From an uncultured Opitutia bacterium (GTDB taxonomy: Bacteria; Verrucomicrobiota; Verrucomicrobiia; Opitutales; UBA953), in contig CAIMFJ010000004.1 of the NCBI GenBank assembly GCA_903840355.1, forward strand, positions 496,001 to 560,000: a stretch of DNA of 64,000 bases, given 5' to 3'. Position 1 is the stretch's first letter. The number at the start of each line of letters is the position of its first letter. Made by a program: the position numbers and the translations under genes. The notes beneath the pieces were generated by a model. The model saw nothing but the letters and a program-made list of their open reading frames with translations. It did no database searches and was not told the DNA's origin. Positions 3,816 to 36,819 of this stretch are shown one piece after another.

Positions 3816-5531
3816 GTGACGACCGCCGACGATTTCGTCATTCAATTTATCCAAGACAAAGGATTGGTTTCGCCCGCTGACGTGGCGGCAGCCCGTGCTT
3901 CTTTGGCTGAGGTTCCCGAAGGCCAGAACCCTGATACTCTGACTTTGGCTAAGTTGGTCGAGGAGAAGAAGGTTGCCTGGGTTTCCATTACCCGAGCTTT
4001 GGGTGTGGAGTTTGATATGGAGGTGGTGGATGTGAACCAAGTTTCGCCATCGGAAGATTTACTGAAACTTATCAGTCGCGAGCAAGCGGAGCGCCAAAAC
4101 ATCCTTCCCTTGCAGATGGATGGGGTGGAACTCTTGGTGGCTATCGCCGATCCTTTAGACACCGACACGCTTGACTCTTTATCGCGGGTTTTGAAGTTAA
4201 CTTTAAATCCCAAGTTAGCCCCGCCCGATGAGTTGCGTACGGCCATTGCTCGTTGTTATGGCGGCGGCCAGGTAAACGTTTCTTACCAAGACGTTTTCGG
4301 AAAATCCGAAGATGGCGTTTCGGTCGAATTGCCTCAAGGCGGCGAAGTTAAAGAAGACGATGCACCCATCATCCGCTACGTGAACTCTTTGATTGTGGAT
4401 GCGATTCGTCGCAAGGCTTCCGATATTCACTTAGAGCCCTTGGAAAAGCGCTTTCGCGTGCGTTTCCGGATTGATGGTGTGCTCCAAGAAATGAAGGGCC
4501 CCCCCAAGCGCTTGCAGGCTTCGGTGATTTCACGTTTGAAGCTGATGGCCGAAGTTTCCTTGGCCGAAAAGCGCATCCCGCAAGACGGTCGTATTCAGGC
4601 CCGCACCGGCGGTCGTGATATCGACTTGCGGGTATCGGTTTTGCCGACGGTTTATGGGGAGTCCATCGTCATGCGTATTTTAGATAAAGAAGGCCTCAAA
4701 CTCGGCTTGCCGGAGTTGGGCTTCTTTGCCGATGACCAAGCGAAGTTCCAGGGGCTGATTTCTGGTTCTGATGGCGTCTTCCTCGTCACCGGTCCTACCG
4801 GTTCGGGTAAGTCGACGACGCTGTATTCGGCGTTGAACTACATCAATAAGCCTGACCGCAAAATCATCACCGTTGAAGACCCTGTCGAATACCAGATGGC
4901 GGGTATTAATCAGGTGCAAGTGAAGCGCGACGTTGGGATGACTTTCGCGGCCGCCTTACGTGCGATGTTACGTCAAGCGCCGAACATCGTGATGATTGGG
5001 GAAATTCGGGATATGGAGACGGCCGAAATCGCCGTGAATGCGGCCTTAACGGGTCACATGGTGTTCTCCACGTTGCACACTAATGACTCGGTTAGCGCCG
5101 TGACTCGTTTGGTTGATATCGGAGTTAAGCCCTTCTTAGTGTCGGCTGCTTTACGTGGTGCCTTGGCGCAACGTCTGGTGCGTCGGGTCTGTCAATCTTG
5201 TGCCCAGCCTTACAAGCCCACGGCGAAAGAACTTTATTCCATTGGTATGACCGAGCAGGATATTGCGGGGGCCACGCCGATGAAGGGTGCGGGGTGTGCA
5301 AAGTGTGGTGACCGTGGTTACAAGGGTCGCCGTGGCGTGTTTGAAATCTTTGTCATCACGGAAGAAATCCAAGAAATGATTTACTCCGGTGCTAACCTCG
5401 TAGATTTGCGTCGCAAAGCTCGCGAAGCGGGCATGCGCACCATGCGTGAAGACGGTCAACGCAAGGTGGCTTCGGGGATGACGACCATTGAAGAAGTGAT
5501 GGGTGCCACTGTCGCCGACGACGTACTCTAA
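3816..5531 (+). CDS. pilB: Type IV pilus / type II secretion assembly ATPase, PilB paralog 1
   Basis: 571 residues from a GTG start with no Shine-Dalgarno sequence. The N-terminal MshEN-type domain is followed by the T2SSE ATPase domain: Walker [10 protein letters not shown] near 325, [14 protein letters not shown], and STLHTNDS. A four-cysteine zinc element (CQSC near 459, CAKC near 493) is typical of PilB/GspE and absent from PilT. The segment before GEIRD reads LRQAPN where the family normally has LRQDPD, which the second paralog at 6640 keeps. It would power pilus extension or pseudopilus assembly at the inner membrane. pilT follows 4 bases after the stop. Confidence 0.92.
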
Positions 5532-5535
5532 TCTT

Positions 5536-6618
5536 ATGGCTTACGAGATTCATCAATTACTCGAAGCCATGATTGAGAATGGCGCCTCTGACTTGCACTT
5601 GCACGTCGGTCGGGCTCCTAGTTTGCGCGTGAGTGGTAGCGTTATCTCGATTGATGGTCCGGCCCTCACGCCTGAAGATACTGAAAATTTAGTGCAGTCG
5701 ATTACGCCCCCCGATCAGCAGGAGCGCTTGAAGCGCGACGGAGGTTGCGATTTCGGTTTTTCCTTCCACAAGAAAGCTCGGTTTCGGGTGAATGTTTATC
5801 GCGGTAAAGGCTCTCTCGGCATGGTGCTGCGTTTGATTCCAGCGAAGATGTTTACCTTGGAGCAGTTGCGCCTGCCCCCGATGATTAAGGATCTTTTAAA
5901 GCGTCCGCGGGGTTTAATTTTAGTCACTGGTCCTACGGGCTCAGGTAAGTCGACCACGTTAGCTTCCATGATTAATTGGATCAATGAGAACGAAGATGGC
6001 CACATTGTGACCATTGAAGATCCGATTGAATACTACCATGCGCATAAAGGATGCGTGGTAACCCAGCGTGAAGTGCACAACGACGTGCCTTCTTTTGCCG
6101 ACGGCATCCGCTCGGCTTTGCGTCAAGACCCGGACGTCATCCTGATTGGCGAAATGCGCGATTTGGAGACGATTGAAGCCGCCGTTTCCGCGGCGGAGAC
6201 TGGTCACTTAGTTTTCGGTACTTTGCACACCACCGGTGCGGCGCGCACGGTCGACCGCATTCTGGATGCTTTCCCGGCTGGGGCCCGCGACCAGATTCGT
6301 GTGCAATTAGCATCTTCGATTGTCGCCGTGATTTCCCAGTGCCTGTTACGCACGGTTGATGATAAGCGCGTTGCCGCTTACGAAATTATGATTCGCACGG
6401 ACGCCATTGCCGCAAAGATCCGGGAAAACAAAACATTCCAAATTGTTTCCGACATCGAAACCGGTGCCGCCCGCGGCATGCGCACCTTAGATGCCGATTT
6501 GTTGGCCCTCTACCTGCAGGGCACGATTTCTGAAGAGGAAGTCTTCAATTACTGCCAAGACGGCGAGATGATGCGTTCGCGCATCAAGGCCGGCGATAGC
6601 AAACCCACCCCCCGCTAA
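5536..6618 (+). CDS. pilT: Type IV pilus retraction ATPase PilT
   Basis: 360-residue hexameric ATPase expected to drive pilus disassembly and twitching. Motifs are [15 protein letters not shown] near the N-terminus, Walker [10 protein letters not shown] near 132, [23 protein letters not shown], and [15 protein letters not shown]. The C-terminal [10 protein letters not shown] near 288 corresponds to the PilT-specific AIRNLIRE motif. It lacks the zinc cysteines of PilB. The frame extends 11 codons upstream into pilB1, but ATG 5536, just past the pilB1 stop, gives the standard N-terminus MAYEIHQLL. It lies between two PilB paralogs, an unusual order. Confidence 0.93.
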
Positions 6619-6639
6619 CCCCTTTATCTACACCTTCCC

Positions 6640-8322
6640 ATGTTTGACGACCATAGTGACGTAATTCGTGAAATTGCCCTGGAGTCTGGTCTCGTTAACC
6701 AAACTCAAGCCGATGAGATTTGGGAATCTCATGCGAGCACTGGTAAGTCTTTTGCCGATAGTGTGATTGATAGCGGCTTGGCCGATCGCCCCTCGATTCT
6801 GCAAGCGGTGGCGGATCACCTGCAGATTCAATATTACTCGGTAGTCCCCAATGACTTGGCTGATGAGCTCACGAACTTGCTCAAGCCCGCTCAGGCTCAC
6901 AAGTATTTGGTGGTGCCCGTAGCGGATGAAGCCGGCAAGTTGACCCTGTTGGCTAAAGACCCGTTCAACTCGGCGGTGGTGAATGAGCTGACGTTTATTT
7001 TACAGCGGGACATTGAATTAGCCGTCGCCGATCCCGATCAAATCGATAACGCTGTGGTACGCATTTATGGCGAACCTTCGGCCTCTTCGATGGAGGATTT
7101 GTTGGGCGAATTTGATCAAGCGGATAACGCCCCCGTTTCTGACGAGGATGTGATTAATCAAGCCAGCCAGGCGCCGATTATTCGTTTCGTCGACCTCGTG
7201 CTGCAAGAAGCGGTGAAGGCCAAGGCTTCGGATATTCACTTTGAGCCTTTTGAAGACCAGTTCCGCATCCGTTACCGCATCGACGGTTCGCTTTATGAAA
7301 TGGCTCCGCCGCCCAAGAATTTGGCCTCGGCGGTGATTGCCCGGGTCAAAGTTTTGTCGGCCTTAAATATTGCGGAGCGCCGGATTCCGCAGGACGGCCG
7401 GATTAAAACCACGATTGGGGGGCGTGCCATCGACTTGCGCGTATCGACTTTGCCTACGCAGTTCGGCGAGTCCGTGGTGTTACGTATTCTCGATAAGACC
7501 GTCGTTAACCTGAGCCTCGAGGCATTATCGATGCAGGATGACATTAAGGAAGGGATTCGCCAGATGGTGAATCGTCCTAACGGTATTTTCATCGTCACTG
7601 GCCCGACAGGTTCGGGTAAAACCACGACGCTCTATTCCGCTTTGCGGGAAGTGAATACGGAGGATATGAAAATTTTGACAGCGGAAGATCCGGTCGAGTA
7701 CGAAGTCGAAGGCATCATGCAGGTGCCCATCAATCACCAGGTCGGTTTAACGTTCGCGGCGGCGCTGCGTTCCTTCCTGCGTCAAGACCCTGACACCATC
7801 ATGGTGGGGGAAATTCGTGACTTAGAAACCGCCCAAATCGCCGTACAAGCCTCGCTCACGGGTCACGTGGTGCTTTCCACGCTCCACACCAACGATGCTC
7901 CCGGTGCCGTCACTCGTTTGATCGATATGGGTCTCGAACCGTTCTTAATTTCTGCCTCGCTTGAAGGCGTGTTGGCCCAGCGTCTATTGCGCCGGATTTG
8001 TAAGTCCTGCCGCACGGCCTATGAGCCGGACAAGGAAGTCGTGGGCATGCTCGAGGTCGATGCCTTGGAGATTGCTAATAAACAATTCTACTTCGGCAAA
8101 GGTTGTGCCGAGTGCAACCGCTCTGGCTACCGCAGTCGCCAAGGCTTGTTTGAATTGATGACCATCAATGACTCGTTGCGCACGTTAATCACGCAAAAGG
8201 CTCCGACTTTGGTGTTGAAGCAAAAAGCCATCGAGTCTGGCATGCGTCCCCTCCGGGAAGACGGCTTGCGTTGTATCTTTGATGGACTTACCACGATTGA
8301 AGAAGTCTTGAAGTATACCTAA
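6640..8322 (+). CDS. pilB: Type IV pilus assembly ATPase, PilB paralog 2
   Basis: 560-residue PilB/GspE-family ATPase. The N-terminal MshEN-like region is followed by SDIHFEPF and the catalytic core: Walker [10 protein letters not shown] near 320, [21 protein letters not shown] and STLHTNDA. The zinc element is CKSC and CAEC. Unlike paralog 1, every ATPase motif is canonical, so this copy is the likelier main extension motor. It starts 21 bases after pilT; both this spacer and the next contain CCTTTATCT. pilC follows 26 bases after its stop. Whether the two PilB proteins serve one machine or a pilus plus a type II-like system cannot be told here. Confidence 0.92.
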
Positions 8323-8348
8323 CCCTTTATCTGACCCCCCCCACAACT

Positions 8349-9596
8349 ATGCCCGACTATAAGTATACCGCCATCGATCGTAATGGCGCCCAGACCTCTG
8401 GGAAAATTGATGCTAGTAGCGATGAACAGGCCCGCCAGAAGCTCATGGCCCGCGGCCTGATGGTGACTAGTTTGGCCAGCGACAATGGGGCCGGGAAGGC
8501 GGCCATCGCTGCCCCTTCGGCCAAGAAGAGCAGTTTTAGTTTCGGCAAAGGGAAGGTGACGCCTGATGACGTCACCACGATGACGCGCCAATTAGCGACG
8601 CTCATCATTGCTGGTCTACCCTTATTGCGTGCTTTGGAGTTAATCCATAAGCAAGAACGCAATCCTGCCTTTAAGGCCGTGTTGCAAAACGTCGCCGAGA
8701 GTGTTTCCCAAGGTAACAACCTTTCGGAAGCCCTACAGGCTCACCCCAAGGTTTTCGATAAGCTTTTCGTGAACATGGTGCGTGCCGGTGAAGCGGGTGG
8801 GGTGCTGGATAAGGTGCTCGATCGCTTGGCTAAGTTCCGCGAAAAAGCCCAACGCATTCAAAAGAAAGTTAAGTCCGCGATGGTGTATCCCGGCGTGGTG
8901 ATGTCGGTGGCCATTATTATTGTGTACGTGCTGATGGTGAAGGTGGTGCCTGCGTTCCAAAAACTCTTAGACGGTCAAAAGACCCAGATGCCGGCGTTGA
9001 CGCAGTTCGTCGTGGGAATCTCTAAGTTCCTGACCGAGTATTGGTATGCGACCCCAGTCCTGATTGCGGGTTTGTACTTTGGGGCCAAGACCTGGCTCGC
9101 CAGCGACAAAGGAAAGGAAATCTTCGACCGGGTAATCTTCCGTTTGCCTAAGGTTGGTACCTTCATGCAAATCGTTTCCGTCTCTCGCTTTGCACGTACC
9201 TTCGGTACGTTGATGGCTTCGGGTGTGCCGATCTTGCAGTCGATTATGATTACGCGCGACACCTTGGATAACGTGGTGATCGCCAACTCCCTGGTGCGCG
9301 TGCACGACCGCGTGCGCGATGGTGAGCCGCTTTCTGTACCTCTTGAGCAAACTGGCGTGTTCCCTCAAATGGTGACGTCGATGATTCAAGTCGGTGAAGA
9401 GACCGGTCAGCTCCCTGAGATGTTGAATCGCGTGGCTGATATTTATGACGAAGAAGTCGACAATGCCGTGACCGCATTGACTTCCATCATCGAGCCAATC
9501 CTCATCGTCTTCCTGGCCGTGGTGGTCGGTACGATTGTGTTGGCGATGTTCTTACCGCTTATCGCGCTGATCACGAAGATGACCGGCGGTAGCTAA
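8349..9596 (+). CDS. pilC: Type IV pilus inner-membrane platform protein PilC (GspF family)
   Basis: 415 residues with two T2SSF domains, the polytopic platform that PilB and PilT act upon. The N-terminus YKYTAIDRNGAQTSGKI and the segment TRQLATLIIAGLPLLRALE are typical of the family. Membrane helices are visible at about 180-200, 225-245 and 378-402, with a second repeat (SRFARTFGTLMASGVPILQ) between them. It is the last gene of the pilus cluster and is followed by a strong terminator at 9628-9666. The start has no Shine-Dalgarno sequence. No pilins or secretin genes are in the window. Confidence 0.93.
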   Translation: MPDYKYTAIDRNGAQTSGKIDASSDEQARQKLMARGLMVTSLASDNGAGKAAIAAPSAKKSSFSFGKGKVTPDDVTTMTRQLATLIIAGLPLLRALELIHKQERNPAFKAVLQNVAESVSQGNNLSEALQAHPKVFDKLFVNMVRAGEAGGVLDKVLDRLAKFREKAQRIQKKVKSAMVYPGVVMSVAIIIVYVLMVKVVPAFQKLLDGQKTQMPALTQFVVGISKFLTEYWYATPVLIAGLYFGAKTWLASDKGKEIFDRVIFRLPKVGTFMQIVSVSRFARTFGTLMASGVPILQSIMITRDTLDNVVIANSLVRVHDRVRDGEPLSVPLEQTGVFPQMVTSMIQVGEETGQLPEMLNRVADIYDEEVDNAVTALTSIIEPILIVFLAVVVGTIVLAMFLPLIALITKMTGGS

Positions 9597-10038: not shown

Positions 10039-11370
10039 ATGAGCGAGACGTCCCCACCACCGCCCCCGTTGCCTGACGCTACGCCGCCTCCCTTACCTCC
10101 GCCTGCCCCGGTGGTGATTCCCGTGGTCGAGATGGAGGAAAATGCTTTGGGGGTGAAGCGGGCCAAGCGCTCTTGGTTGCAGCGGATTGGTTTTGGCGGC
10201 TTGGCGGTTTCGTTAGGCGTGCACTTTTTTCTGATTATCGGGGCGTTATTCTGGGTGATTTCAACTTGGAGCGATGCCGCTAAGAAAGATCCTGATTCAT
10301 TTTCTACGGGTGCGGGAGGCGGTAATAACGGAGATCGCGCGAGAATGGCTGACCACAAGGTGCAGCCGAAGAATACGAAAACTTTAGCGAAGAACGTTAG
10401 TCGCATCACCAGCAAGAATGCTAATAGTTCCATTTCTTTGCCTGATTTGCCCACGGCTTCTACATCGACGCTGTTGTCGGGGATGATGGCTGGGGGCGCT
10501 TCTAAAGGCTTTGGCGGTGGTTCGGGTGGTGGGATTGGCAATGGGATGGGTTTAGGCGTCGGAGGCGGTAAAAACTTTGTTGGTCGCCCCGTGATGGGTG
10601 CACGTATTATCGCCCAAAAAATCGCCGTTTACATGGACGCCTCCGGTTCGATGGGAGGGTATTTAGATCGCGTTGAAAACGAGATTCGGAAGCAGTTTCC
10701 CGATGCGGACGTTTTCATGTACAATGGTATTTTTACTTTCGTGCAAGACGGCGCCGTCGCGGGCGGACTGCATTTTAAAGGTCAACCTATTGCGCGGATT
10801 GGACCTGGGATTCGCGACACGGATCCCAAGAAATTATCTTCCGTAGGCAAAGCGGTGTTAAAGAAATATGACAGTAATTTTATGGCCGGCTCCGTAGGGG
10901 CTTGGGTGGATATCATGCGTCAAGAGAAGGGGTATGATGCGTTGGTGTTATTTTCTGACTTTGAAGACGGGGTTACGCAGTGGCGTATCAAAGGTGAAAA
11001 AGGCAGCAGCACTAAGGGAGGCTCCAGCTATCCAGTCGTTTATTATGATGGTACCCGCACGGATTTGGGTGGGGGTTCGGATCTGCGTAAACCTGCTGAA
11101 AAAACTTGGGAAGAAGAGTGGGTGCGTTCCTTTGCTGCGGCTAAAGATGGTCGCGGTCCCCGCCTTTACTGTTTCTCAACCGAGCAAGAGCCTCAGCCGT
11201 TGCTCACCAAATGCGTCGTGGCTTCTGGTGGACAGATTAAAATGGTGACGTGGTTAAAGACCGGCGGCGAGCCCCCAGCTGAAGATGCGAATGCCACGAC
11301 GATGATGACTCCGGCAGCTGCGGCCGTGCCTGGTGCAAGCGCTCCTAAGCCCTACAAGCCGCCACGCTAA
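10039..11370 (+). CDS. Membrane-anchored vWA-domain protein with a TonB/TolA-like helix (copy 1)
   Basis: 443 residues. A proline-rich cytoplasmic N-terminus (1-30) and a basic patch (KRAKR) precede one transmembrane helix at about 51-75. The helix contains S58-L-G-V-H62, the Ser-x-x-x-His spacing by which TonB and TolA contact ExbB/ExbD or TolQ/TolR. Then come a linker, a glycine-rich stretch (about 150-178) and a vWA-like domain beginning near 193. Its metal-site motif is D200-A-S-G-S, with FSDFEDG further on. The tail carries EQEPQP and a cysteine also present in copy 2. The role is unknown. vWA domains bind proteins through a divalent metal, so a periplasmic binding role is plausible; coupling to an ExbB/ExbD motor is inference. 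Confidence 0.8.
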   Translation: MSETSPPPPPLPDATPPPLPPPAPVVIPVVEMEENALGVKRAKRSWLQRIGFGGLAVSLGVHFFLIIGALFWVISTWSDAAKKDPDSFSTGAGGGNNGDRARMADHKVQPKNTKTLAKNVSRITSKNANSSISLPDLPTASTSTLLSGMMAGGASKGFGGGSGGGIGNGMGLGVGGGKNFVGRPVMGARIIAQKIAVYMDASGSMGGYLDRVENEIRKQFPDADVFMYNGIFTFVQDGAVAGGLHFKGQPIARIGPGIRDTDPKKLSSVGKAVLKKYDSNFMAGSVGAWVDIMRQEKGYDALVLFSDFEDGVTQWRIKGEKGSSTKGGSSYPVVYYDGTRTDLGGGSDLRKPAEKTWEEEWVRSFAAAKDGRGPRLYCFSTEQEPQPLLTKCVVASGGQIKMVTWLKTGGEPPAEDANATTMMTPAAAAVPGASAPKPYKPPR

Positions 11371-11460
11371 GGGGTAGATGCTAGAGTTGGGGCTTTAGCC
11401 CTGCTTGGTAATGAAGTTCAGGCACACAGGCTTGGGGTAGATTTTAGTTCGTGCAAAATT

Positions 11461-11478
11461 GAGGCATGACGATGCCTC
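11461..11478 (+). promoter_or_regulatory. Hairpin across the start of the second vWA gene
   Basis: GAGGCAT at 11461-11467 pairs perfectly with ATGCCTC at 11472-11478 around a 4-base loop (GACG). It encloses both candidate ATG codons (11466 and 11472) and the GAGG that could serve as Shine-Dalgarno for the second. It may limit translation; the pairing is seen, the function is inferred. Confidence 0.4.
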
Positions 11479-12551
11479 GTGTACTACTGACTCAGCGCCA
11501 TCAGGCGAGTTCATGGCGTAGTTTCCTGTTTTCGTTTACGGTACACCTGCTGTTGATTGCCTTGGCCTGTTGGGTGGTATTGCGGTACGCCACGCCCGTT
11601 CGACTAGAAACGCCTCAATCAATGGTCGTGGCCGGGGGTGCAAGTTCGCCCGCTTTGGGTGTTAAATCGTTTTCCCAAACGAAAACGGCGACCTTAGAGC
11701 GAGCCAAGTTGCAACGGCTCACGGTGAAAAATGCTACCAGTGGTTGCGTGGTATCTTCGGTGGCTTTGCCTAAAATGAAGCCGGGTGGTTCGTTGGGTGC
11801 CAGCGGGCAGGGCTTAGGCAAAGGAGGGCAGGGACACGGTTTTGCTTCGGGCTTGGGGCAGGGTCTGGGCACGGCCAGTGGCTTTACGGGAAAACCAGTT
11901 TTGGGAGCGACGATTCGTGCTAAAAAGGTCGCAGTGTATTTAGACTGCTCAGGTTCTATGAAGCCGTATTTAGACCACGTTAATCGAGAAATCCGACATC
12001 AATTCCCCGATGCCGATGTGTTTCGTTTTGATGGAGCAAGGGTGTTAGCCTACGAGAAAGAAGTCGTGTATGGCCGGGGTTTTCATGGCGTGGCTCCGCG
12101 GGTTCATGAGGCCCCGACGCAGACAATCCTGGCGGACTTAACACCCTACGGTCACCAATTGCAGGAGCGATTTTCTCAGGCCTGTGAAAAGGGTTCGTTG
12201 GGCGCGTGGTTGGATTATATGATTCAAGAGCCCTACGATGCGTTGGTCGTTTTTTCCGACTTTCAAGATGGAGTTCGCATTTATGAGCAAGATTCTCATC
12301 GTGATCCGCGCTTAATTTATTCGGATAGTTATTATCATCCCGTTAATCATGGCCGTGCGTTGCATTATCCCTGGGAGCAAAGATGGTTGGAGCGATTTGC
12401 GTTAGGGCAGCATTTTAAAGGGCCGCGACTTTACCTGTTTACGGTGCAACAAGAGCCCCAGCCGATTTTATTAAAATGCGTGGCTGCTTCGGGTGGGGCG
12501 TCGACTTCAGTATCATGGTTAAAGCAGAAGCCCGCGGTCGAGGCACGTTGA
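11466..12551 (+). CDS. Membrane-anchored vWA-domain protein with a TonB/TolA-like helix (copy 2)
   Basis: 361 residues, a shorter paralog of the preceding gene and 95 bases downstream of it. A short N-terminus leads into a helix at about 20-40 containing S23-F-T-V-H27, the same Ser-x-x-x-His spacing as in copy 1. A glycine-rich linker and the segment FTGKPVLGA precede the vWA domain, whose metal motif is D160-C-S-G-S. QFPDADVF, FSDFQDG, GPRLYLF and QQEPQP are shared with copy 1. It lacks the proline-rich head. ATG 11472 (MPRVLL) is an alternative start, 7 bases after a GAGG. Function is unknown; conservation of both anchor and metal motif argues that both copies work. Confidence 0.78.
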   Translation: MTMPRVLLTQRHQASSWRSFLFSFTVHLLLIALACWVVLRYATPVRLETPQSMVVAGGASSPALGVKSFSQTKTATLERAKLQRLTVKNATSGCVVSSVALPKMKPGGSLGASGQGLGKGGQGHGFASGLGQGLGTASGFTGKPVLGATIRAKKVAVYLDCSGSMKPYLDHVNREIRHQFPDADVFRFDGARVLAYEKEVVYGRGFHGVAPRVHEAPTQTILADLTPYGHQLQERFSQACEKGSLGAWLDYMIQEPYDALVVFSDFQDGVRIYEQDSHRDPRLIYSDSYYHPVNHGRALHYPWEQRWLERFALGQHFKGPRLYLFTVQQEPQPILLKCVAASGGASTSVSWLKQKPAVEAR

Positions 12552-12588
12552 CGGTTGCACCGTGGGCGGGATTGGTTTTAGATGCGGT

Positions 12589-13008
12589 ATGGTTCCCTTT
12601 ACCTCTGAGTTTCGTGCTGCGTTTGCCGATACGGATGCGGCGGGAATCGTGCACTTTACCACGGTCCTCTTTTGGGTTGAGGCCACGGAGGAAGCTCTCT
12701 TTCGCGAGTTAAAGCTACCTTTTTTTGTCCAAGAGGAGGAACGCGTGAAAGGTTTTCCGCGGGTGCGGATTGAGTGTGATTATAAGTTTCCCGTTTACCG
12801 TGAAGAAGTCGTGACCATCGCCCTACAGCCTCAGGAGTTGGGCGACAAAAAAATAGTCTGGAGCTTTAAGGCCACGGTCCAAGGGCGTGAAGTGGCGGCG
12901 GGCGCCTTAACGACCGTGTATGCCCACCGGACGGGGGCGGGGGCGATGGCCGCCGCACTCATTCCGTTGCCTACCTTAACTGGGCTGCGAACCTATTTTA
13001 AATTATAA
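12589..13008 (+). CDS. YbgC-type acyl-CoA thioesterase (hot-dog fold)
   Basis: 139 residues of the 4-hydroxybenzoyl-CoA thioesterase / YbgC family. The signature FADTDAAGIVHF at residues 12-23 contains the expected catalytic aspartate (D16), followed by FWVEATEEAL. Length fits the family. The frame is open to GTG 12562, but ATG 12589 leaves a typical short lead (MVPFTSEFRAAF). In many Gram-negatives ybgC heads the tol-pal operon; here it follows two proteins with TolA-like anchors by 37 bases. The substrate is not evident from sequence. Confidence 0.85.
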   Translation: MVPFTSEFRAAFADTDAAGIVHFTTVLFWVEATEEALFRELKLPFFVQEEERVKGFPRVRIECDYKFPVYREEVVTIALQPQELGDKKIVWSFKATVQGREVAAGALTTVYAHRTGAGAMAAALIPLPTLTGLRTYFKL

Positions 13009-30672: not shown

Positions 30673-31116
30673 TTATTCGGGTTCGGCGACGGCGAAGGTG
30701 ACGTTTTTGATTTTGGCCTTAGCCAAAACATCGAGTACGTTAATCACGCGTTCGTAGCGGGCCGCTTCTTCGGCTTGTACGGTAATTAAGAGTTTGTTGT
30801 GCGCTTGTTCGGCCGCTTGGGCCATCTTGGTCATTTCGCTAAAGAGTCCGTCCAAGGTTTTATCCGTTGGGGAGCCTACGGGATCATCGTTAATGGTGAT
30901 TTGACCGTTCTCTGCGACCCCAATGGTCACTTCATCGGGCATTTCGGTTTCCTTAGCCGTTTCGGCATTACCGGGCAGGGTGGTTTTGAGTTCATGTTCC
31001 ACTTTGACGGCACCGGCCATCACCATGAAGAAGAGCATGATCACGAAGACCACGTCGATCATCGGCGCAATCTGGAAGCCCGGATTGGGTTGTTCTTCGG
31101 CTGGAGGGCGCTTCAT
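30673..31116 (-). CDS. exbD: ExbD/TolR-type biopolymer transport protein (copy 2)
   Basis: 147 residues. A short cytoplasmic head precedes a single transmembrane helix starting FQIAPMID21VVFVIML, which contains the aspartate that ExbD/TolR proteins need for proton-driven function. A periplasmic domain ends NVTFAVAEPE. The frame is open to 31212 inside the previous gene, but ATG 31116, 2 bases after the exbD1 stop, is the natural start. It is the last gene of a five-gene set and is followed by a terminator. Confidence 0.9.
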   Translation of the reverse strand: MKRPPAEEQPNPGFQIAPMIDVVFVIMLFFMVMAGAVKVEHELKTTLPGNAETAKETEMPDEVTIGVAENGQITINDDPVGSPTDKTLDGLFSEMTKMAQAAEQAHNKLLITVQAEEAARYERVINVLDVLAKAKIKNVTFAVAEPE

Positions 31117-31118
31117 GG

Positions 31119-31559
31119 TTATTCTTCGCGGTTGAGCCCGGAGAAGGCGATGTTGTCGATACCGGCTTCCGCCCCCCATTCGAGGGCCTTGGAGATGTAT
31201 TTCGCGTGGCACTGACGATCGGCGCGGATGAGTAAGCGGTACTTTTCGTTCGTGCCTTTGCGGGCGGCTAATTCTTTGGCAATCCCGTCTTTGTCATTCG
31301 GGTCGAGTTCACGGTCATCGAGTTTATACTTCGCTTGGCCCGTGGTGGCGTCCCAAGAGATATTGATTAAACCCGCGGCGGCTTTGTCGTCGCGCTTTTC
31401 ACCATTGGCTGCGACGGGCAGGGCGATGTTCTTATCAATTTTAAGAACTTGGGCGGAGGTGATGGACATGAAGAAAATCAAGAGCACCAAGAGCACGTCA
31501 ATCATCGGTGCTACTTGGAATTCTGGCTCTCCGTCGCCTCCTCCGCCTCCGCCTGCCAT
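31119..31559 (-). CDS. exbD: ExbD/TolR-type biopolymer transport protein (copy 1)
   Basis: 146 residues with a six-glycine stretch at 3-8, then FQVAPMID21VLLVLLIFFM, the transmembrane helix with the essential aspartate. The periplasmic domain ends IDNIAFSGLNREE. With exbB upstream (22 bases) and exbD2 downstream it forms a motor that converts proton motive force into work on a partner spanning the periplasm. Two different ExbD proteins suggest a mixed complex or two functions. No TonB or TolA gene is adjacent. Confidence 0.9.
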   Translation of the reverse strand: MAGGGGGGDGEPEFQVAPMIDVLLVLLIFFMSITSAQVLKIDKNIALPVAANGEKRDDKAAAGLINISWDATTGQAKYKLDDRELDPNDKDGIAKELAARKGTNEKYRLLIRADRQCHAKYISKALEWGAEAGIDNIAFSGLNREE

Positions 31560-31581
31560 GGTTTTAAGTCAGGGTTAGGGG

Positions 31582-32388
31582 TTAAGCTTGCGCCTTTTCT
31601 TCGGTCGCAGGGGTCGCCGGAGTGGCGTTCCAATCAGGCTTAGCGGCGTAGATTTCTTCGTCACCAATCGTGTGGCCGGCTACGTCTTCGTAAGGGAAGG
31701 CGCGGAAGAGGCCCGAAGCGATTTCGGTGATGTCGTGGATACCTTTATCGATGCGGTTGCGCAAGAGGTAGTAGGCAATGAACGCGGGAATAGCGATGAA
31801 GAGACCTGAGGCCGTGGCCACGAGCACTTCGCCGATAGCGCCAGAGAGTTTTGAGGGGTCGCCCACGCCCGAGGAGCTGAGGGTGCGGAAGGCGCGCATC
31901 ATGCCCGTCACAGTGCCGGTGAGGCCGATCATCGGACAGCAAACCCCGATAACGGACAGGTAGGAGGTGCGACCCATAAGGTCGGCTTTAATACGGGTGA
32001 TTTCTGCGATGATGGATTCTTCGGTCATCGTCTTGCCATCGGTCGTGAAACCCACGCCCGCGCGGACAACGTCACCGATGGGGGACTTTGCCGCTTTGGC
32101 GTATTGATAGGCACCGATGTAGTCGCCGTGTTTGAAGAAGTCGCGCAGCTGCAAGACTTGTTCTGCAGGGTAGAGTTTCTTGGCGCTGGTGCGGATGAAG
32201 CCATCGACCACGAGCCAGATCATGAGGATGGAGCAAGCCGTGATGGGGTACATGACCCAACCACCTTCTTGGAAACTATCCCAAGCAGTTTTTTCGTGCA
32301 TGCCTGCGGTTTCTTGGGCGTGAGCAACGACGGCACCGAAAGCCAAGAAAGCCGAAGTGGCTAAACTAAGACGGAATTTCATCTTCAT
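31582..32388 (-). CDS. exbB: MotA/TolQ/ExbB-family proton channel protein with signal peptide
   Basis: 268 residues. The N-terminus (MKMKFRLSLA to VVAHAQE) looks like a cleavable signal peptide with a site after residue 24. The ExbB core follows, with a helix around 48-65 (MYPITACSILMIWLVVDG) and two later helices. The conserved segment GLTGTVTGMMRAF and EVLVATASGLFIAIPA are family hallmarks. ExbB subunits with signal peptides occur in several TonB-type systems. The frame is open to 32445, but that would overlap the upstream TPR gene and bury the signal peptide. Confidence 0.92.
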   Translation of the reverse strand: MKMKFRLSLATSAFLAFGAVVAHAQETAGMHEKTAWDSFQEGGWVMYPITACSILMIWLVVDGFIRTSAKKLYPAEQVLQLRDFFKHGDYIGAYQYAKAAKSPIGDVVRAGVGFTTDGKTMTEESIIAEITRIKADLMGRTSYLSVIGVCCPMIGLTGTVTGMMRAFRTLSSSGVGDPSKLSGAIGEVLVATASGLFIAIPAFIAYYLLRNRIDKGIHDITEIASGLFRAFPYEDVAGHTIGDEEIYAAKPDWNATPATPATEEKAQA

Positions 32389-32441
32389 CGTAATCAGGGG
32401 TAGTAGGTTATTTAGGGTAGGTTTTGGAAAGGGGCAAGGAC

Positions 32442-33470
32442 TCACTTATTACCTTCGTCATTTTGGCTATTATCGGTCTTGGCCGGGGTGGTCTTGGGGG
32501 TTTCTTCGGGAAGCACGGTATCGCTGATTTTTTTCTGTTCAGCCTCGGCTAAGAGACGGTCTTCCTTGGAGAGGAGTTTTTTGGCTTCCTCGGCTTCCTT
32601 GGAGACTGGGTAGAAGATGACTAACTCGCGCAAGTAGCGGTTGGAAATTTCTTCCAGTTTTTGTTCGCGGGTAGCCGGGGTGTCCATTCCGCGGAAGGCT
32701 TTAGCGGCCCCGAGCATGGCTTTGGGGATGTGTTCTTTTTGCGAACCGAAGAAGACGGGCACGCGCAGGTAGGTATTCATCGCCAGCTCGTATTTCTTGG
32801 TTTGGAGCAGGGAGTTGCCTTTGACGAGGTGAAGGCGGGCGAGGACGTCGGGGTCGTCGACCTGGCCAATCAGGGCGGTGGCTTCGGTGATAACCGTTTC
32901 ATGTTCGCCCCGGCGGGCGCGTTGCATGAGGCGGGCGAGTTTGATTTTAAGAGCCAGTTCGGGGACTGAGCCGTCATCCGCTTTTTCTAAGTTATCAAGA
33001 AAGGAGGAGAGGGCACTGTCGTTTTCTAGTCGGTCCAGAGCATCCAACTTGATCATCGAGGCCTTGAGCCACCAGCTGCCTGGCACTTTCTTGACGGGCT
33101 CAAAGAGACGAATAATCGGCTCAACGACGGTGAGCGCATTGGAGGAGTCGCCGCGAGCCACACTATTTTGGGCCTCCGTGAGTTTTTCTGGCATAGGCCA
33201 GATGATACGTTCGACGTCGGTAAATTTCTTCGTGGTTTCCATTTCCACGCCGCCATTGGTGGTGAGTTTAGTCACCGTGCCTTTGAGGGTGTTCATGGTG
33301 GCCTTCTTCGGGTCCACGATGGGCTTGGGAGGCAAGGTGGTGGTGTCGACCTTGAAGGGGTCGTTCACTTCCCAGCGGTCGCCGCCCTTGAAGATGAGGG
33401 TTTGTCCGAGGCAAGTAGCCGTGGTGCCTAAGAGGCTTAGGCTTAACAGGCGAAAGAGTGCGGTACGCAT
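32442..33470 (-). CDS. Exported TPR-containing protein of the exbB-exbD operon
   Basis: 342 residues with a signal peptide (LLSLSLLGTTATCLG). The first part includes LIFKGGDRWEV and a beta-rich stretch, then helical repeats resembling TPR units (LHLVKGNSLLQTKKYELAMN). The C-terminus is charged and low-complexity. It begins 4 bases after the large TPR gene and lies 53 bases upstream of exbB. Function is unknown; position suggests a periplasmic partner of the ExbB/ExbD motor. Confidence 0.7.
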   Translation of the reverse strand: MRTALFRLLSLSLLGTTATCLGQTLIFKGGDRWEVNDPFKVDTTTLPPKPIVDPKKATMNTLKGTVTKLTTNGGVEMETTKKFTDVERIIWPMPEKLTEAQNSVARGDSSNALTVVEPIIRLFEPVKKVPGSWWLKASMIKLDALDRLENDSALSSFLDNLEKADDGSVPELALKIKLARLMQRARRGEHETVITEATALIGQVDDPDVLARLHLVKGNSLLQTKKYELAMNTYLRVPVFFGSQKEHIPKAMLGAAKAFRGMDTPATREQKLEEISNRYLRELVIFYPVSKEAEEAKKLLSKEDRLLAEAEQKKISDTVLPEETPKTTPAKTDNSQNDEGNK

Positions 33471-33474
33471 GCGA

Positions 33475-36400
33475 TTAAAGGTTAACGGTGAGCGCGCGGG
33501 CTTCTTTAGCTTCAGGGGTATCCTTGATGCGATCCTTAGAGAGCATCTCGGTGAGGAGTAGTTTCGCTTCAGGTTTTTGGCCCATCTTATTGGCCAGAAC
33601 CTTGGCGGCGCTGAGGTAAGCCTTAGCCGACCAAACTTCGTATTTCTTCCAAGCTTGGTAGCAACGGCGGTAGTAAGCCACGGCTTCGGCGTTATGCCCT
33701 TGGCGTTCTTCCATGACGCCTAACCAATAGAGGCAGCCGGCGGTGGTTTCTCCGCGCCATTGTTTTTCTTTAGCAATCTCTTCGAATTCTTTTTTCGCGT
33801 CGGGATATTTTTCCGTGTTGGCGAGGGCCCGGGCTCGCGCAAAGCGAATTTCCTTTTCCTTCGACATCGTAATATTGTTGTCGATGGCCTCGTTGCAGAG
33901 GGCGAGGGCGTCGGCGGGCTTGTTTTGGCTAAGGCGGATTTCCGCTAAGCCGGCGAAACTGAAGTCAGCATACTCGGAGGAGCGATGATGTTCCATGATG
34001 TACGTGAAATAGGTTTCGGCTTTGGCGGTTTCACCTTTGGTTAACAAGTAATCCCCCACGATGGCTAAAATAGTGGGGCTTAATTCCTCGGCTTTATAGT
34101 TATTCGAAATCTTTTGGAAGTAGGTGTCTGCTTTCTCAGGATTGCGGAGAAAGGTGGCAATTTGCCCCAAGGCAAAGAAGCCGCGAGCTTGGGCGATCAA
34201 AGAATCTTTGTTTTCCTCTAAGCGCAGGTATTTCACTAAATCGACTTCAGCTTTTTCGGCCGTGTAACTGCCCGGGGGCAGGGTGACGCCCGGCTTGACG
34301 CGTTTAACGCGACGCGCGAGTTTTTCGGCCAAGTAAATAACGAGCTTTTCGGCGCCTTCCTGCTTACGGTCATTGATGCTTTCCGCCACCGAGGTGGATA
34401 GAATGCCCAAGGCTTCTTCCTTGGCTTGGGCGATGCTGGCCTGACGGCGTTTATCGACTTCTTCTAAAGCCGCTGCGAGTTCCGTGGAGAGTTTAACGAC
34501 ATCGGCCTTGGCGGCTTCGACGATGGGCTTGGGCGATTCTTTACGCTCTAAGTCATCAACTTTACGACGAGCATCTGCGAGTTGCTGGCTGAACTTCTTT
34601 TGTACCTGGTCGGTTTCTTGGGCGAACTCCGGCTTATCGCCCATGCGTTCCGTCGACTTAATGATTTCGTAAAGGTAATTCAGCGCCTTGGGATCGTTGT
34701 GATTCCAGTCGTAGATTTCTTTGTATAAATCGCGGAGACGTTGGTGTTCGCCGCGACCTGGGAGTAGTTTGCCTAATTCGCGGAGGACGAATTCTAAAGC
34801 GTTGGGGTTTTTGCGGGCGGTTTTGGCGGCATTGATGTAGGCCTCGATGCCTTTGCTCGTGTAGGTCTCTTTGTCTTTTTCCAGCCGGACCTTTTCGTTG
34901 AAGAAGCGCTTCTTTTCAGCGGGGTTTGAGTTCGTGCGCACCTTCATGTCGGCCTCGCGGATGGCCTTGTCGAGGTTTTCGGCTAAACGCATTTCCGCAT
35001 CGCCAATGAGGGTGTGAACTTCGGGGATTTGGTTGACGATTTCGTCGTCTTTGAGGACGGCGTAATCGCGGAGCCAGTCGTTGCAGATCTTTAAGGTCTC
35101 GTCAATTTGCGGAGGATTGAGGCCAAATTTTACAATCCCTTGGCGGTAGCGGACGTCCGCCATGAATTGTCCCTTGGGGTAGTCGGCTTGGTACTTATCG
35201 AAGGCTGTGACGGTTTCTTTATACTTACCTTGGTAGAACCAGCAGAGGGCGCTCATGTAGCTGGCTTGTTGGCGCAGCATGGAGCGTGGGTGGACTTTGA
35301 GGAATTCCTCGAGGGCTTGGCCAGCTTGCTCCCATTCCACGTGCGCGAACAGGCAGGCGGCGATGCGGAAATCGATTTCTTCGACCGTTGGGGCGTCGAG
35401 CTTTTTAACGTTAGCCTTGGCCCACTTGTAATGCTCGATGGCTTCAGGGTATTCTTCGCGATCTTGGGAGATCTCGCCGAGGATGATGGCGACTTGCGAC
35501 AACTCGTCGGAGTCCGGATATTTTTCGAGAAACTCTTTGCACTTCGCTTGGGCTTCGGTGTTTCGGCCGATATTGCGCAGTGCTAAGATATAGTAGTAAT
35601 ACGCCCCGGAGATTTTGCTGAAGTTGGGGTTGTTATCAAAAATATCACGGAAGGCGATGAACGCTTCCCAGGGTTTATTGAGTTCTAGTAAGCACAGCCC
35701 GATACGATACGAAATGAAGGCATCATAGTCCTTGTTTGCGTTAAAATCGGTTTCGATTTTCTTAAATTGATCCACGTCGCCGCGGGCAGCTTCGATTTGA
35801 ATCGTTTGTTCTGGCGTGGGTTTGGGGAATTGTTTCAACAGTGCATCCACTTGCTGTTGGCGGGCTTCGACGGCTTTGCCCACGGCGCGGGCAACCGTGT
35901 TACGACGCAGGGCGCCTTGGTAACTGACTAACGCTTGTCGGTAGAGTTCAGGCTTTTCTTTTTCATCGGCATTTTCCGCTGCTTCAAATCGGGCGTCGCC
36001 GATTTCAATCCGTTGGAAGTTGGAACGCACGATGTCGGCGGGCGAGCCATTGCTGCGCGCATCGATTTCCGACTTCAATTGCTCGGCTTCCTTGGTCATG
36101 CCGAGCTTGGTGTAAACTTCGACTAATTTGAAACCCGCTTCGCGGCGTTCCGGAGTATCGATGCCTTGGGCCGTCGCCGTTTTGAGTAAACCCAAGGCTT
36201 GGCCGAGGGCTTGGCGCTTTTCCGCGTCGGAAGCACTCTTCGATTTCTCTTCAATAATTTTAGCCGAAAGCGTGAAGGCATTGACTCGATCTTCAGCGCG
36301 CAACAGGGGGTTGCTGCGCAGTTTTTCTAAGAGCCCGAGGGCTTGGTCCCACTTGGATTGATTGGCTAAAACTTCGACGAGGCTTAATTGGGCTACCCCG

Positions 36401-36819
36401 CGCTTATTATCGAAGGCATCGAAGAAGTCCTCGGTACCCTTGTCGAATTTCGCCAGAAAGTTGTTAAGCTCGGCCTCGGCTTTGGCCCAATCCTTCATCA
36501 AATAGTAGCAGGTGGCTTTGCGGAATGATAATACGGCCCGTAGGCGAGGTTCAAGGCTAGGGGGGGCCTTTTTGTCGATGTCTTCGTAGGACTTCAGGGC
36601 CTCGGCGTATTTTTTAGCGTCGAGGCTCTTTTCGGCCTTTTTAAATTCTGCCGCTAGCGGGTCTTCCTTCTGCTCAGTTGCGGCGGCAGGTTTGGTTTGG
36701 GCCTGAAGGGTGCCAGGGACGGGAGACAGTGCGAGTAGGATGGCAAGCAAGGTTGCTTTAGCCAACTGGTAGTTGCGGGACTCGGGGATAGCCATCGGGT
36801 ACTTGGAGGGTGACTCCAT
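33475..36819 (-). CDS. Very large exported TPR-repeat protein (1114 aa)
   Basis: 1114 residues with a signal peptide (ATLLAILLALSPVPGTLQAQ). The mature protein is almost entirely TPR-like helical hairpins, recognisable from repeated units such as KKYAEALKSYEDIDKKAP, DREEYPEAIEHYKWAKAN and GHNAEAVAYYRRCYQAWKKY. A long charged coiled-coil-like region lies around 730-830. It opens the operon TPR-TPR-exbB-exbD-exbD. Such a protein could scaffold a trans-periplasmic complex; this is inference. ATG 36795 is an alternative start. A candidate promoter is at 36834-36862. Confidence 0.8.
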   Translation of the reverse strand: MESPSKYPMAIPESRNYQLAKATLLAILLALSPVPGTLQAQTKPAAATEQKEDPLAAEFKKAEKSLDAKKYAEALKSYEDIDKKAPPSLEPRLRAVLSFRKATCYYLMKDWAKAEAELNNFLAKFDKGTEDFFDAFDNKRGVAQLSLVEVLANQSKWDQALGLLEKLRSNPLLRAEDRVNAFTLSAKIIEEKSKSASDAEKRQALGQALGLLKTATAQGIDTPERREAGFKLVEVYTKLGMTKEAEQLKSEIDARSNGSPADIVRSNFQRIEIGDARFEAAENADEKEKPELYRQALVSYQGALRRNTVARAVGKAVEARQQQVDALLKQFPKPTPEQTIQIEAARGDVDQFKKIETDFNANKDYDAFISYRIGLCLLELNKPWEAFIAFRDIFDNNPNFSKISGAYYYYILALRNIGRNTEAQAKCKEFLEKYPDSDELSQVAIILGEISQDREEYPEAIEHYKWAKANVKKLDAPTVEEIDFRIAACLFAHVEWEQAGQALEEFLKVHPRSMLRQQASYMSALCWFYQGKYKETVTAFDKYQADYPKGQFMADVRYRQGIVKFGLNPPQIDETLKICNDWLRDYAVLKDDEIVNQIPEVHTLIGDAEMRLAENLDKAIREADMKVRTNSNPAEKKRFFNEKVRLEKDKETYTSKGIEAYINAAKTARKNPNALEFVLRELGKLLPGRGEHQRLRDLYKEIYDWNHNDPKALNYLYEIIKSTERMGDKPEFAQETDQVQKKFSQQLADARRKVDDLERKESPKPIVEAAKADVVKLSTELAAALEEVDKRRQASIAQAKEEALGILSTSVAESINDRKQEGAEKLVIYLAEKLARRVKRVKPGVTLPPGSYTAEKAEVDLVKYLRLEENKDSLIAQARGFFALGQIATFLRNPEKADTYFQKISNNYKAEELSPTILAIVGDYLLTKGETAKAETYFTYIMEHHRSSEYADFSFAGLAEIRLSQNKPADALALCNEAIDNNITMSKEKEIRFARARALANTEKYPDAKKEFEEIAKEKQWRGETTAGCLYWLGVMEERQGHNAEAVAYYRRCYQAWKKYEVWSAKAYLSAAKVLANKMGQKPEAKLLLTEMLSKDRIKDTPEAKEARALTVNL

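Follow-up and report, generated by a model that had tools for sequence, protein, structure and literature searches.

Tandem vWA proteins with a Ser-x-x-x-His anchor helix as probable transducers of an ExbB-ExbD-ExbD motor in Verrucomicrobiota

The window, a stretch of 64,000 nucleotides (C4:496001-560000) of a 2.27 Mb genome (G000), carries two tandem open reading frames on the plus strand. Each encodes an N-terminal anchor helix (SLGVH and SFTVH) and a vWA metal motif, as a sequence-only reading of the same DNA had described. The pair and the gene that follows it are made up of these parts:

10039..11370, plus strand: putative vWA transducer 1 (protein 1), 443 aa; cytoplasmic Pro-rich N-tail, anchor helix, Gly-rich linker and vWA head
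10195..10281, plus strand: anchor helix of transducer 1, aa 53-81, from an AlphaFold2 model
10210..10224, plus strand: SLGVH of transducer 1 with S58 and H62; invariant S58, H62, L65 and A69 share one helix face
10282..10578, plus strand: disordered periplasmic linker of transducer 1, aa 82-180; a conserved R...LP segment (R122, P135), then a Gly-rich stretch
10579..11268, plus strand: vWA head of transducer 1, aa 181-410; DxSxS formed by D200, S202 and S204, with T261 and D307 also invariant
11466..12551, plus strand: putative vWA transducer 2, 361 aa; short N-tail, SFTVH, linker and vWA head with DCSGS
11532..11546, plus strand: anchor motif SFTVH of transducer 2 with S23 and H27
12562..13008, plus strand: 4HBT thioesterase, YbgC/FadM-like; directly follows transducer 2 and is linked to the pair in its own lineage

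Neither vWA protein received a Pfam or NCBIfam name, and neither matched Pfam TonB_C or TonB_2; the head is a vWA domain instead. The AlphaFold2 model of transducer 1, built from a 20-sequence alignment, has one helix (53-81), about 100 residues of disordered linker (81-179, pLDDT <50) and a confident domain at approximately 181-410. Plain Foldseek returned no significant structural match for this protein (best E 9e-3); VIA-align of residues 176-423 then aligned mostly vWA domains in the PDB (best Z 7.3, rmsd 4.6, 154 aligned), including those of Sec23/24, TFIIH p34/p44, Ku, Rpn10 and integrin beta. The metal motif is intact in both proteins (DASGS in transducer 1, DCSGS in transducer 2). DxSxS, T261 and D307 are invariant in 20/20 aligned proteins, and Gly203 varies, with DxSKS, DxSRS and DxSDS found among relatives. 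The R...LP segment of the linker is conserved and has no strand in the monomer AlphaFold2 model; its conservation makes R122 and P135 a candidate motor box of transducer 1. Protein 1 reaches 650-700 aa in several relatives (L033:1495-3474 and similar), where its vWA head contains an additional segment and its C-terminus is extended. Between the two transducers, some relatives encode a third vWA protein that has an apparent signal peptide and no anchor (L045:10253-11011).

Among the force transducers of ExbB/ExbD-type motors, two have been studied well, TonB and TolA. Their shared motif is Ser-3x-His-6x-Leu-3x-Ser, and the contacts with TM1 of ExbB/TolQ centre on the Ser and His of the transducer helix (PMC12905483). 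We counted these positions in an HMM alignment of matches for which the His was not required. Among 175 distinct relatives the His is present in 175/175, and the Ser position is occupied by Ser in 166, Thr in 6 and Ala in 3, so that neither residue varies freely. By this alignment the SxxxH pattern is far beyond chance. The conserved face of the helix comprises the Ser, the His, Leu at +7, Ala (87%) or Gly (9%) at +11 and Val (83%) at +15, and is common to members with vWA heads and members with PA14 heads. The first half of the TonB/TolA motif (Ser, His) alone is retained; Leu is replaced by Ala/Gly and the last Ser by Val.

The relatives that carry names are MAGs of Opitutia (UBA953, UBA957 and others); lakes are the main source, and isolate names point to gut metagenomes for further ones. 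Relatives of protein 1 were found in 37/37 genomes of the same genus, own genome included, and every one of these carriers also holds an ExbB, as the link to ExbB proposed from sequence had predicted. A BLAST search with protein 1 that covered 20 further families of the order found no relative beyond its own family, unlike the profile search, which reaches relatives outside the family. In a phylum-wide search, members of the anchor family occur in 50 of 388 genomes.

Heads other than vWA, which the sequence-only reading had missed, sit on the same anchor. Among 75 distinct anchor proteins there are 34 vWA, 22 PA14 and 13 squalene-cyclase-like toroid heads, with 6 unassigned. Pfam matches above cut-offs in relatives include VWA (L196, L203), PA14 (L182, L196, L199) and squalene-hopene-cyclase-like toroids (L185, L189, L198). 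In the genome under study, paralogs at C4:138.9-141.7 kb match protein 1 in the anchor and linker (56-57% identity) and not in the head. Their heads are PA14 domains, which VIA aligned to sugar-binding PA14 domains at Z up to 12.2. The anchor and linker of transducer 1 are 57% identical to those of its own PA14-headed paralog, and the transducer 1 head is 41% identical to the transducer 2 head. These PA14 heads have the same fold as the carbohydrate-binding domains of Marinomonas adhesin, Epa1 and Flo5, and have a conserved GDD; unlike those of PA14 adhesins and enzymes, they sit on an ExbB-type anchor. At L196, vWA- and PA14-headed members occur in tandem with near-identical anchor and linker and an N-terminal SAM domain on both. 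This SAM domain is cytoplasmic, lies before the anchor of the two tandem transducers (L196:8729-11741) and could cluster them.

An ExbB-ExbD-ExbD set is located at 30673-32445 on the minus strand, 18 kb from the vWA pair, in an operon of the following genes:

31582..32445, minus strand: member of the transducer-linked ExbB clade; Thr present in GTV and ATA, as are Pro in AIPA and Ser in TM1
31119..31559, minus strand: ExbD-1; APMIDV Asp present
30673..31212, minus strand: ExbD-2; APMIDV Asp present
32442..33470, minus strand: 342-aa periplasmic protein, weakly Mul1B-like (NF052542); beside the motor, as in transducer operons of other genomes
33475..36819, minus strand: 1114-aa TPR protein, candidate partner; beside the motor, as in transducer operons of other genomes

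The essential motor residues are found in this set. The TPR and Mul1B-like genes lie upstream as in relatives, but the operon in the window has no transducer gene, and the vWA pair is about 20 kb from ExbB in many other genomes of the genus too. Elsewhere in the phylum the two are joined. In 14 of 40 loci, which were picked for carrying a member and are therefore not a random sample (several of the genomes are related), a family member lies directly downstream of exbB-exbD-exbD on the same strand. The member overlaps the exbD stop by 4 bases in 7 of those 14 loci. The adjacency count carries no formal null; with the few exbD sets that a genome has, a given gene is estimated to adjoin one by chance in well under 1% of cases. 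The slot after exbD is also filled by PA14-headed (L199, L209) and toroid-headed (L189, L207) members, and at L180 and L193 a member heads a TPR-Mul1B-exbB-exbD-exbD run.

In the ExbB phylogeny the window ExbB clusters with nine transducer-linked motors (support 100/99). The TonB-linked, TolA-linked, C2 and C7 ExbBs of the same genome fall outside this clade, three of them on long branches whose exact placement is unsure. A search with the window ExbB scored 644 bits for itself, 180-270 for linked motors of other genomes and 56 for the next ExbB of its own genome. Together, the operon neighbours in relatives and the ExbB phylogeny uphold the tie to this motor that had been suspected from the sequence.

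The genome encodes five ExbB/ExbD sets. Those on C2 (L069:5972-6921) and C7 (L070:5899-9795) are ExbB/ExbD pairs without a TonB-like gene, one of which adjoins a 927-aa TPR protein. A TonB at L068:7124-7765 (C5:302.1-302.8 kb) adjoins its ExbB-ExbD and a TonB-dependent receptor and, unlike E. coli TonB, has no membrane His (SSCLVG in the helix). Directly after a further ExbB-ExbD pair lies a 267-aa TolA/TonB-like protein with SIAIH, Ser at +15 and no Pfam match (L067:4425-5228, C1:59.4-60.2 kb). The absence of a tolA gene, which the sequence-only reading had anticipated, therefore does not hold; the transducer model is unharmed by this gene, since a distinct ExbB clade goes with the vWA family.

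To compare the numbers of motors and transducers, seven genomes were searched with the anchor profile and the window ExbB. We found four transducers and one close ExbB in each of the own genome, G304 and G284, 11 and one in G356, and six and one in G228. In G268, 10 transducers accompany one close ExbB and a weaker one, and G099 has four transducers with two ExbBs of the motor clade, so one motor per genome is not universal. With 4-11 transducers against mostly one close ExbB, most members in these genomes are therefore encoded away from the motor, a point missed in the sequence-only reading, and the 18-kb arrangement in the window is thus unsurprising.

These observations make it probable that both proteins transduce proton-motive force in the manner of TonB and TolA, act with the ExbB-ExbD-ExbD set at 30673-32445 and share a chassis with exchangeable heads. 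From the comparisons above we infer docking, force transmission, the identity of the partner and the biological role as follows. The Ser-x-x-x-His helix would dock laterally on this motor's ExbB pentamer, and the disordered linker of about 100 residues would span the periplasm. The vWA head, with its metal-binding (MIDAS) site, may grip a partner, possibly the TPR or Mul1B-like protein of the motor operon or an outer-membrane target, and motor cycles would then move the gripped partner. Anchor and linker would form the chassis on which heads (vWA, PA14, alpha-alpha toroid) are swapped, with one motor serving several transducers. We lean, with less confidence, toward a modular arrangement found throughout the phylum: a single ExbB-ExbD-ExbD motor would drive a set of transducers with a common anchor and linker and swappable heads (vWA, PA14 of the sugar-binding type, toroid), most of them encoded at other sites in the genome. 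The Verrucomicrobiota envelope would then have a general proton-driven tool-holder, as opposed to one system dedicated to transport or tethering.

Some points count against the motor reading: in its own genome the pair lies outside the motor operon, and the aligned helices keep only the Ser and His of the TonB/TolA motif. The anchor could have a role independent of the motor, or the C2 or C7 set could be the partner instead. Docking on another motor of the genome (C2, C7, TolA- or TonB-linked), or on several, is rather unlikely. There are five sets to choose from, and TonB and TolA can each interact with the other's motor according to the main text of PMC12204202, but of the ExbBs in this genome the window ExbB alone belongs to the clade that is operon-linked to the family, and the 56 bits of the next one contrast with 180-270 for linked motors elsewhere.

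The neighbours of the pair suggest two other readings. Genes resembling pilT, pilB and pilC (5503-9596) lie directly upstream, and are kept with the pair through the lineage; among same-lineage loci long enough to include this position, most have them there. PilY1 is an example of a vWA protein at the pilus tip, and the pair might be anchored vWA adhesion or assembly proteins of these type IV pilus genes, the motor link being irrelevant in this lineage. We regard this as unlikely: a gap of about 440 bases, with what looks from the sequence like a tRNA gene on the other strand, separates the pair from pilC; members elsewhere accompany exbB-exbD-exbD; and the invariant His of the membrane helix would be left unexplained. 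Downstream, the YbgC-like thioesterase, conserved after the pair in this lineage, had been taken as an indicator of a Tol-type system. It scores under the cut-offs of the tol-pal equivalog (28.9 against 141 bits) and of TIGR00051 (38.5 against 68.7), and outside the lineage a thioesterase was found near the family once only, about 9 kb off (L190). YbgC was therefore ruled out as a functional link, being lineage-specific. The genome also has a separate ExbB-ExbD-TolA-like set. A tol-pal-like system made up of the pair and ybgC is accordingly very improbable. Among those neighbours of the pair and the motor that were annotated, a subset of all, no TolB or Pal was found.

If the transducer reading is correct, the fusion of one anchor to unrelated binding domains would make the motor a general power outlet. 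This would go some way to explaining why ExbB/ExbD sets occur without a TonB gene, as three do in this genome. PA14 heads point to glycans and would bear on polysaccharide handling by Verrucomicrobiota, and the single histidine offers a simple test for each family member.

The pair resembles TonB and TolA in its N-terminal Ser-3x-His helix, disordered periplasmic linker and ExbB/ExbD-type motor, and differs in having no TonB/TolA C-terminal domain and in the Ala (+11) and Val (+15) that replace Leu and Ser. The motor operon resembles Akkermansia MUL1, in which a large TPR protein lies beside a small periplasmic protein and ExbD genes; the match of the 342-aa protein to NF052542 Mul1B (E 2.2e-5) is below the cut-off. 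MUL1 was ruled out as an identical cognate system, since no anchor-family gene occurs in the flanks of the loci in two g50 genomes (taken as Akkermansia by their Mul1B scores).

The sequence-only reading considered the system possibly undescribed; the class was proposed in June 2025. The main text of PMC12204202 (Williams-Jones et al.) puts forward vWA force transducers of the PVC group that have SHLS helices, a motor-box beta-strand predicted after the helix, and AF3 models in which the helix docks on the ExbB/TolQ pentamer; the window pair is a member of the class as set out there. Common to both are the Ser/His anchor helix, the disordered linker of about 100 residues, the vWA head and the PVC distribution. 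According to that text, such genes in the PVC group often have a TPR gene, a tolQ-like gene and a pair of tolR-like genes as neighbours, whereas the window pair is in tandem, 18 kb from its motor; this neighbourhood is present in 14/40 of the relatives' loci and is not required of all members. The Leu and Ser of SHLS are not kept in the window pair, which does not exclude membership, as the full motif is described in 'many', not all, members. PA14 or squalene heads are not mentioned in that main text, nor was a count of motors against transducers found there. A description of such heads with ExbB/ExbD was likewise not found in the literature searched, whose coverage left out most subscription journals. 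The window and its relatives thus extend the class, as given in that main text, by other heads on the same anchor and linker and by an excess, in the seven genomes searched, of 4-11 transducers over mostly one close ExbB.
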